Assembly (NCBI GenBank): GCA_937128595.1
Contig: CAKZMO010000222.1
Span: 1-35,408, forward strand
Reading direction: 5' to 3'
DNA: 35,408 nt
DNA from: an uncultured cyanobacterium
GTDB taxonomy: Bacteria > Cyanobacteriota > Cyanobacteriia > CAKZMO01
Part shown: in pieces, positions 18,755-35,408 of the stretch
Position numbering within the stretch: the stretch's first letter is position 1
Layout of the letters: every line of letters starts with the position of its first letter
Translations under genes and position numbers: made by a program
Notes under the pieces: model-generated
Database searches by the model: none
The model's input: the letters and a program-made list of their open reading frames with translations, nothing else
Told to the model about the DNA's origin: nothing

Positions 18755-18828
18755 TGTGGGGAAATAATGAAAAGGGATGGGTGGCGATCGCTCAGTAGCT
18801 TGAGCCGCCTGCATCAGGACAAGACTGG

Positions 18829-18917
18829 ATCCGCAGATATCGCAGATCAGCGCAGATTGTTTAGTCGATGAAGGATACAGCTTCTTTATCTGCGGACTAT
18901 CTACGCCATCTGCGGAT
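18829..18917. repeat. Inverted/iterated repeat with GCAGAT/ATCTGC units
   Basis: atccgcagat(18829-18838)...atctgcggat(18908-18917), perfect 10-bp terminal IR, with iterated cGCAGAT units in the left half and ATCTGCGg in the right; between convergent genes. Confidence 0.85.
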
Positions 18918-18979
18918 GAATCTCTTCCCTTGGTCGATAGTTAGAGATTTATTTAGAGATTTTCGGATGGCCGATAGAG

Positions 18980-19726: not shown

Positions 19727-19998
19727 AACACTTTGTTGTAGCTACAATTGATAGAATTTCCAAAGTTCCAGCTCCAAAGTTCAGGAACTCTACAGGTAGA
19801 TTCAGTTCAGAGTGGACGTATTCCAGATAAAAAATTCTGAATAATACAGCTCAATACACAAATCAACTGAAGCACAAAGACGTCCAGAGTATGCGGAGAG
19901 CTGCATCTGGATGAAGAGGAGTTTCTGATTCTATGCGTTTGTCCGTAGTCCAAGCAGTCTAATGTGGGATAATTACACTGCGCCACTAATTGCGGACT

Positions 19999-20985
19999 AT
20001 GGCTACCACGAAAGAACGGAAACCGATTCTTCTAGATTTTGAAAAACCTCTAGTCGAACTTGAACAGCGCATCGAGCAAATTCGTGACTTGGCAGAGGAG
20101 AACGATGTCAATGTTGCGGAGCAGATTCGACAGTTAGAAATCCGAGCCTCTCAACTGAGAAAAGAAATTTTTGACACGTTGACTCCTGCTCAACGACTGC
20201 AAGTAGCTCGACATCCTCGTCGTCCTAGTACCCTTGACTACATCCAAGCGATTAGCGACGAGTGGGTAGAGCTGCACGGCGATCGCGCCACGGGTACCGA
20301 TGACCCGGCAATGGTCGGAGGCATTGCTCGCTTGGACGGTCGCCCGGTTGTGATCCTAGGGCATCAGAAGGGACGTGATACTAAGGACAACGTTGCTCGA
20401 AACTTTGGGATGGCCTCTCCCGGCGGCTATCGCAAGGCAATTCGCTTAATGACCCATGCCAATCGTTTCGGAATGCCCATCATCACCTTTATCGATACAC
20501 CGGGAGCCTATGCCGGGTTAGAAGCAGAGCGCTTAGGGCAAGGGGAAGCTATTGCTTATAACCTGCGCGAAATGTTTCGTCTGGATGTGCCGATTCTGTG
20601 TACGGTGATTGGAGAAGGTGGTTCGGGTGGGGCGCTCGGAATTGGAGTGGGCGATCGCCTGCTGATGTTCGAGCATTCTGTCTATACCGTCGCGAGTCCT
20701 GAAGCCTGTGCAGCCATTCTTTGGAAAGATGCTGGCAAGGCGGCTGAGGCGGCTGAGGCTCTTAAAATAACAGCGCCGGATTTGCTCGACCTCGGGGTGC
20801 TAGACGAAATTTTGCCCGAGCCAAGTGGAGGGGCCCATGCCGATCCGTTGCAAGCTGCAGCGACACTGAAGACCGCCCTCTTGAACCATCTATCGATGCT
20901 AGATGCGCTCACCAGTCAACAACGTCGAGATCTTCGTTACCAAAAGTTTCGGGCGATCGGCAAGTTTGACGAGATTCCAGCGTGA
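19999..20985 (+). CDS. accA: Acetyl-CoA carboxylase carboxyltransferase subunit alpha
   Basis: [92 protein letters not shown]. Confidence 0.98.
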
Positions 20986-21248: not shown

Positions 21249-21351
21249 TATAGCAATGCGCAGATAGGTTAGGACAGATATTGATGGAGAAGCCGCGCGG
21301 TGCGCGGCTTCTCCATCAACGATTGGTTTTATATCAGCGCGTAGCGCTATA
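21249..21351. mobile_element. MITE-like element, copy 1 (103 bp), with internal perfect 18-bp hairpin at 21281-21319
   Basis: tatagcaatgcgcagataggttaggacagata...gcgcgtagcgctata; imperfect terminal inverted repeats beginning TATAGC; near-identical second copy at 35296. Confidence 0.75.
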
Positions 21352-21997
21352 GCCATAATGTCAAGCGTCCTCGGGAGGTTGGTCTACAACGCGAATGTCA
21401 CGATGCTATAATAAAGTCGCAACAAAAGTTTACATGTGATGTGTGACTTTGTATCTAGATTGCTTTTAGCAATGGTTTCTGCGTGCTCTTGTTGAGAGTT
21501 TCGGGAAGAGATTACGCAGGATTCTCGCGATAGATTTGAAGATGACTGAACCTGGATATTGGTATTTGAAGAGACCGCTGAGATTAGCGTTTCTTAGTTG
21601 AGTTACCAAGGTTGGATTGTTTGAGTGCTACGGCTAGCAAGGTTCTAAGATGCAACGCCGAGTAATCTCGTTGAAGCTTGCAGCTTAGAAAACTCTGTCC
21701 AATTGGGAGGCATGGTTTTGGACTGAGGCAAATCTCGAGAATATAGAGTGCTTTGTTGGTGAGCCACGGCAGTAGCGGTAATTTGCATCAGATATTTGCA
21801 GCGCGATGTCTCAATCCAAATTCATCATCGTTATTCACAGTAAACGTTCCTACTCAATACGCTTGACTGTGCTTTTATCGAGCGCATTGATCTCTGAAAA
21901 GCCGAGCCTGAGATGTATGCATTAAAGCTTCGAAGGTCTACAGGTGCAATGTTCTTGTTCTCAAAACAATTGATGTAATGAAAGGTTGAAAATTTAC

Positions 21998-22723
21998 ATG
22001 ACAGGTTCAAAGGCTCGTCGCGCTCTGATTACTGGAGCGAGCAGCGGAATTGGCAAAGCAACAGCATTGTCCCTAGCAAAAGCTGGATTTCATATAGTGG
22101 TGTTGGGGCGTTCTCAAGCCAAACTGGATGCTGTTGTGTCTGAAATCCAGAAGCATGATGTTGATGTCCGTTCCTACTGCCTTGATTTGGCAAAGGTTGA
22201 TCAGGTGAAATCTTCTATGGAGGCAATCCTCCAAGACTGCGGTCAAGTTGATGTGTTGGTCAACAATGCTGGCATCGGGTACACCGGCACTTTGGCTGAG
22301 ACGCCTCTAGAAGACTGGCTTTACACCATGAATCTCAACCTGACTGGTGTCTTTCAGTGTATTCAGGCTGTGTTGCCAGGAATGCGCGATCGCCATCACG
22401 GCATGATTATCAACATCGCATCTATCGCAGCCAGCACGCCCTTTCCGGGCTGGGGAGCCTACAGTGTCAGCAAAGCGGGGTTGGTTGCATTGTCGAAGAC
22501 TCTGGCAGGAGAGGAGCGAGCCAATGGCATTCGAGTTGTGACCATCTCTCCAGGCGCGGTCAATACTCCAATTTGGGATACAGACACTGTTAATGCAGAT
22601 TTTGATCGCTCCAAGATGCTGACTCCTGACGTGATTGCTGACACAATTCTCCATGCGGTGCAGATGCCTGTCTATGCTGTCGTGGAAGAGATGACTGTGA
22701 CCCCTAGCGCCGGAGCATTGTAG
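21998..22723 (+). CDS. Short-chain dehydrogenase/reductase (SDR family)
   Basis: MTGSKARRALITGASSGIGKATALSLAKAGFHIVVLGR, NNAG, S...YSVSKAG catalytic motif. Confidence 0.93.
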   Translation: MTGSKARRALITGASSGIGKATALSLAKAGFHIVVLGRSQAKLDAVVSEIQKHDVDVRSYCLDLAKVDQVKSSMEAILQDCGQVDVLVNNAGIGYTGTLAETPLEDWLYTMNLNLTGVFQCIQAVLPGMRDRHHGMIINIASIAASTPFPGWGAYSVSKAGLVALSKTLAGEERANGIRVVTISPGAVNTPIWDTDTVNADFDRSKMLTPDVIADTILHAVQMPVYAVVEEMTVTPSAGAL

Positions 22724-35295: not shown

Positions 35296-35408
35296 TATAG
35301 CAATGCGCAGATAGGTTAGGACAGATATTGGTGGAGAAGCCGCGCGGTGCGCGGCTTCTCCACCAACTACTGGTTTTATATCAGCGCGTAGCATTATGGT
35401 TTTAATGT
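35296..35408. mobile_element. MITE-like element, copy 2 (runs to window end), internal hairpin at 35328-35366
   Basis: tatagcaatgcgcagataggttaggacagatattggtggagaagccgcgcggtgcgcggcttctccaccaac...gcgcgtagcattatggttttaatgt; near-identical to 21249 copy. Confidence 0.75.

Follow-up and report, generated by a model that had tools for sequence, protein, structure and literature searches.

The window analysed here (35,408 nucleotides, the entire contig C222 of an uncultured cyanobacterium whose assembly comprises 801 contigs and 6.4 Mb) contains two copies of a short non-coding element that belongs to a large dispersed family. We assign this element as a non-autonomous MITE of IS630/Tc1-mariner type, an assignment supported by its copy number, by TA duplication at empty sites and by an IS630 element elsewhere whose ends match. 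As a MITE family it is new, but of a kind already known. The perfect hairpin at its centre is most likely maintained by slips in DNA copying rather than by selection on RNA. The explanation that we consider probable as a whole is that an IS630 transposase moved the element and that template switching rewrites the hairpin in place.

Two copies of the element in the window

A 103-bp repeat had been predicted from the sequence to occur twice in the window. Both copies are present, with 0 matches in shuffled sequence, and their features are as follows.

21249–21351, + strand: MITE copy 1 together with the flanking TA that belongs to the target duplication; the element itself spans about 21251–21349
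21249–21275, + strand: left terminal sequence TATAGCAATGCGCAGATAGGTTAGGAC, an IS630-type end; about 255–266 copies in the genome, aligns with the Microcoleus IS630 left end
21281–21298, + strand: left arm of the 18-bp stem
21299–21301, + strand: loop GGT; its reverse complement ACC is found in many other copies
21302–21319, + strand: right arm of the 18-bp stem
21333–21351, + strand: right terminal sequence ATCAGCGCGTAGCGCTATA, an imperfect inverse of the left end
35296–35398, + strand: MITE copy 2, in which the right-hand TA is now TG
35328–35345, + strand: left arm of copy 2, variant TTGGTGG; elsewhere in the assembly only in its own right arm
35349–35366, + strand: right arm of copy 2, with the matching change

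The TA duplication at copy 1 is presumed by reading across from the empty sites of other copies. For copy 2, the original prediction gave a span of 35296 to 35408, of which the start stands but the end does not: the copy ends at 35398, and the last 10 bases (35399–35408) are flank, after which the contig stops. Seven of the 103 positions distinguish the two copies. Each has, as predicted, a perfect 18-bp stem and a GGT loop, and the predicted matched change in the stem was found as a single A-T to G-C pair from copy 1 to copy 2 (21284/21316 versus 35331/35363), the remaining 5 differences all lying outside the stem. When folded as RNA, copy 1 has a free energy of -56.6 kcal/mol (z = -10).

Copy 1 is flanked by genes for the acetyl-CoA carboxylase alpha subunit (19990–20985) and a short-chain dehydrogenase (21986–22723), and copy 2 lies 120 bases past a DUF429 gene; we found no sign that these neighbouring genes belong to the MITE. 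The window also includes 72 occurrences of HIP1 (GCGATCGC) and a repeat rich in CGCAGAT units (18816–18922), which recurs at 77% identity near another MITE copy (L080).

Copy number, target duplication and parental transposase

The left end is present in about 255–266 copies in the host genome (up to 3 mismatches), compared with 0–6 matches for a reversed control pattern, and nearly all of the left-end matches that we inspected run into the same hairpin. Approximately 100 of the roughly 260 copies were read. They have a common length of 103 bp, unrelated flanks, no coding capacity, and terminal inverted repeats that are imperfect (left, TATAGCAATGCGCAGATA; inverse of the right, TATAGTGCTACGCGCTGATA). 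A pattern search of the host genome returned two left ends that are not followed by the hairpin; both are truncated or rearranged copies, and no full-length element was found among them.

To identify empty sites, the flanks of each copy were joined by a single TA and queried against the fetched genome DNA. Two copies proved to lie within other dispersed repeats: C5:26188-26290, for which the uninterrupted repeat is present at five distinct loci, and one on C401, for which it is present at one. In both comparisons the empty site has one TA whereas the filled site has two, and we therefore regard the element as a transposon that duplicates TA. Such duplication has been shown experimentally for the IS630 element ISY100 (PMC2170065). 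An orthologous empty site was also sought in the genus of a second genome (G088), where only one flank matched. The repeat interrupted on C5 belongs to a second dispersed family (TATAGCTGTAGTCAGCTTATTTAGGACATAGACG...GTAGCCGC), itself MITE-like, that serves as a target for the MITE (C5 around 26188; L312:15784-15836; L285:279-334).

A class-wide search identified full-length relatives at approximately 73–76% identity in other cyanobacterial families, and these have the ends in common but different hairpins. A pattern scan with TATAGCNCTACGCNNNNAGGTTAGGACA recovered at least 114 stretches, in Prochloron, Okeania, Microcoleus, Calothrix, Trichodesmium, Symploca, Moorena and others. Every relative that carries a name is cyanobacterial, and on this and the HIP1 sites of the window the host is taken to be a cyanobacterium. 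The middles of the Prochloron elements are usually a GAATTTT tandem array, and those of Okeania are often TTCCCTA repeats. Across one set of loci (L134-L211, in Prochloron, Okeania and Calothrix) the same ends enclose tandem-repeat middles of GAATTTT, TTCCCTA or TTACTTA, as if the interior readily gains repeats.

The end TATAGC...GGTTAGGACA is common to the window MITE, to the elements of many named cyanobacteria and to an IS630 element of Microcoleus vaginatus. The latter is 961 bp long (L206:5095-6055), has the same ends, and encodes two ORFs around an A-run that match HTH_Tnp_IS630 and DDE_3. None of 20,000 shuffles aligned as well as its left end does with that of the window MITE; the match of the right ends is weaker yet significant (5 of 20,000 shuffles). 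Because the two ORFs of this transposase (L206:5165-6048) are parted near a run of ten A, a programmed frameshift is possible.

An intact parental transposase was not found in the host assembly, in which the nearest relative is a decayed fragment of the Microcoleus transposase subgroup (C471, 56% amino-acid identity) and the other IS630 elements that we saw have different ends. The full-length element with the same end that was called for in the original prediction therefore exists in Microcoleus vaginatus, while the host genome yielded only the decayed fragment. Another genome (G385) contains a degraded 0.77-kb remnant with the MITE ends and no readable gene. The family may be without a transposase source in this host, unless another IS630 element serves or the gene is absent from the assembly. 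As a candidate parent we examined an ISAzo13-family transposase on C49 that has a MITE right end beside it, and rejected it: its own inverted ends lie inside the position of that right end, and it merely adjoins half a MITE. The reading frame of this transposase (L099, 52–1375 of C49) is broken in two at a T/A run, and a split at about the same place is seen in C382 and in C297, a possible programmed frameshift.

The view that the element is a TA-targeting MITE of IS630/Tc1 type, starting with TATAGC and closing in an imperfectly inverted right end, was thus upheld: the proposed copy search returned hundreds of genome copies plus relatives in many cyanobacteria, the empty-site check demonstrated TA duplication twice, and the ends are shared with an IS630 element. 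Among known systems, it resembles the IS630 family member ISY100 (ISTcSa) of Synechocystis, which is Tc1/mariner-like, in its TA target duplication and IS630-type ends; unlike ISY100 it is non-coding, and the end match is to the Microcoleus 961-bp element. It is like the bacterial MITEs, including Nezha of cyanobacteria (compared by description only), in being short, non-coding, dispersed, high in copy number and bounded by terminal repeats, but differs from them in that a perfect internal hairpin fills its middle.

Matched stem changes and loop inversion

Stem changes were counted in the 90 host-genome copies that are exactly 103 bp long, and the counts are of copies, not events. The paired changes noted in the original prediction are real and far more frequent than chance allows: there were 20 matched double changes and 0 unmatched doubles, alongside 38 single-arm changes. 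Independence with uniform rates would predict 0.3 matched doubles, and a permutation in which partners were shuffled within each pair gave a mean of 1.6 and a maximum of 7. The matched doubles comprise ten distinct pair types, most of them single-copy among the copies read. One stem variant, TTTATGG, is present in about ten copies and with both loop orientations, and the variant of copy 2 (TTGGTGGAGAAGCCGCGC) has exactly two matches in the assembly, one in each arm of that copy.

Within the hairpin, at element positions 33–71, matched changes fall mostly in the outer 12 pairs of the stem and single changes in the inner 6 (11:2 versus 14:24 distinct events as counted by hand, p = 0.004). One reading, arrived at after seeing the data, is that the switch is primed by the inner pairs and that these are not copied again, so that the position pattern would fit hairpin priming.

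The loop also varies. Among the host-genome copies we found GGT in 56, ACC in 32 and ACT in 7, with an inverted loop in approximately 40% of copies. Because ACC is the reverse complement of GGT, the change between them requires either three substitutions or one inversion. Seven copies that are otherwise identical (the outermost two bases at each end excluded) have GGT in 4 cases and ACC in 3. For every flank marker that we tested against loop orientation, all four combinations were present (the four-gamete test), and therefore orientation has changed repeatedly or has recombined.

Both patterns recur in G088, a different genome in which the hairpin has another sequence and a stem of at least 23 bp. 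Its 30 copies have the loops GGA (23), TCC (6) and TCT (1), and there are four matched doubles, 0 unmatched doubles and nine single changes; two of the copies (L392 and L405) are identical but for an inverted loop. In a further genome (G295), the elements are too diverged from one another for loops to be compared.

Proposed template switching and its alternatives

We propose that an IS630-family (Tc1/mariner-like, DDE) transposase would recognise the ends TATAGC...GGTTAGGAC and GCGCGTAGC(A/G)CTATA, excise the element and insert it at a TA, which would be duplicated; these steps, and the identity of the enzyme that moved the family, are inferred. The near-perfect 39-bp inverted repeat of each copy would be rewritten in place during DNA replication, when the polymerase may jump to the other arm (on the same or the sister strand), copy there, and jump back. 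Such a switch would convert a one-arm mutation into a matched pair, and one that spans the centre would turn the 3-base loop over.

The physical mechanism that we suggest here has precedents. One report describes template switching between the arms of inverted repeats as homogenising the arms and inverting the spacer (PMC8604942). A second puts it forward as a process by which RNA hairpins arise and are maintained, and names fully inverted loops as its clearest sign; they are seldom seen in rRNA, and the authors link this rarity to loop conservation (PMC8794818). In a probably neutral hairpin, frequent inverted loops should be expected, and they are observed here. The two signatures of a template-switch hairpin, matched arm changes and loop inversion, are both found in this family. 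We note that mismatch repair in a cruciform could also yield matched pairs, though not loop inversion.

The original prediction left a choice between selection on the hairpin and a copying mechanism that maintains it. Of these we favour copying and not selection, because the matched changes go together with loops that are often inverted, G-U pairs are not preferred, and the wider family keeps the ends but not the hairpin. A stronger version, in which the hairpin flips and self-corrects far faster than substitution and is rewritten at each transposition or replication, making it an actively maintained, self-repairing module that is possibly required for mobility, seems to us unlikely.

Natural selection for a structure in the RNA or DNA that serves termination, mRNA stability or a transposition step would account for the matched changes as sequential compensatory substitutions. 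The stem is indeed very stable, matched doubles exceed chance, and the + strand offers a weak terminator-like context. However, single-arm changes produce G-U pairs and A-C mismatches about equally often (15 versus 14), and the arms are not less variable than the flanks (2.3–2.5% versus 1.3–2.9% substitutions per site). The loop is present in either orientation, the ends persist in other cyanobacteria with a different hairpin, tandem repeats or no hairpin, there is no Rfam match, and two independent changes at one pair in near-identical copies are improbable. Matched changes do exist, but the other marks of a structured RNA, G-U tolerance and a structure conserved among relatives, were not found, and we judge selection to be quite improbable.

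We consider it equally improbable that whole arms are spread, and the loop is flipped, through gene conversion or recombination between oppositely oriented copies. There are hundreds of near-identical copies to recombine, and TTTATGG is common to copies of both loop orientations. Yet several matched variants are single-copy among the copies read, and conversion spreads existing matched pairs without creating them. It fails for the change seen in the window, because no other copy in the assembly has that arm sequence and there is no known donor.

Could the inversions be artefacts of assembling palindromes from short reads, such that only the matched stem changes are real? Many of the 801 host contigs end inside the hairpin or a copy, so the MITE probably limits this assembly. 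Given the fragmentation and the difficulty of assembling palindromes, the loop could be wrongly oriented in some copies. Random mis-joining would make the loop classes mirror one another, and they do not (ACT:AGT 7:1 versus ACC:GGT 32:56, p = 0.007), and the same inversions are present in G088, a less fragmented assembly of 90 contigs, where they lie within long contigs and partly follow subfamilies. The imbalance and this replicate argue against assembly error for most copies, and as a general explanation it is very improbable. A suspicion that neighbouring contigs of equal length duplicate a single locus proved unfounded.

Finally, a REP/BIME-type palindrome moved by a RAYT tyrosine transposase would likewise be intergenic and high-copy, and GTAG is present in the right end, but that motif is part of the terminal repeat, some 20 bases away from the stem, with none at the stem foot, and the TA duplication and long IS630-shared terminal sequences largely refute the idea, to which we give almost no credence.

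Template switching thus remains our preferred account. The earlier cases likewise trace matched changes in the arms and inversion of the loop to a single process (PMC8794818 and PMC8604942), but concern rRNA genes or yeast coding sequence, whereas here the hairpin is in a mobile element; loop inversion is rare in rRNA, compared with its high frequency in the window's MITE family.

These results define a MITE family whose members in different cyanobacteria have one end motif in common while their middles change. Covariation is commonly held to prove that an RNA structure is under selection. In this case, hundreds of near-identical and probably neutral copies exhibit strong covariation together with loop inversion, and selection does not predict inversion. 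The family is a caution for covariation-based RNA discovery in repeats, as well as a good natural test case for template switching, and its copies offer a way to measure its natural rates.
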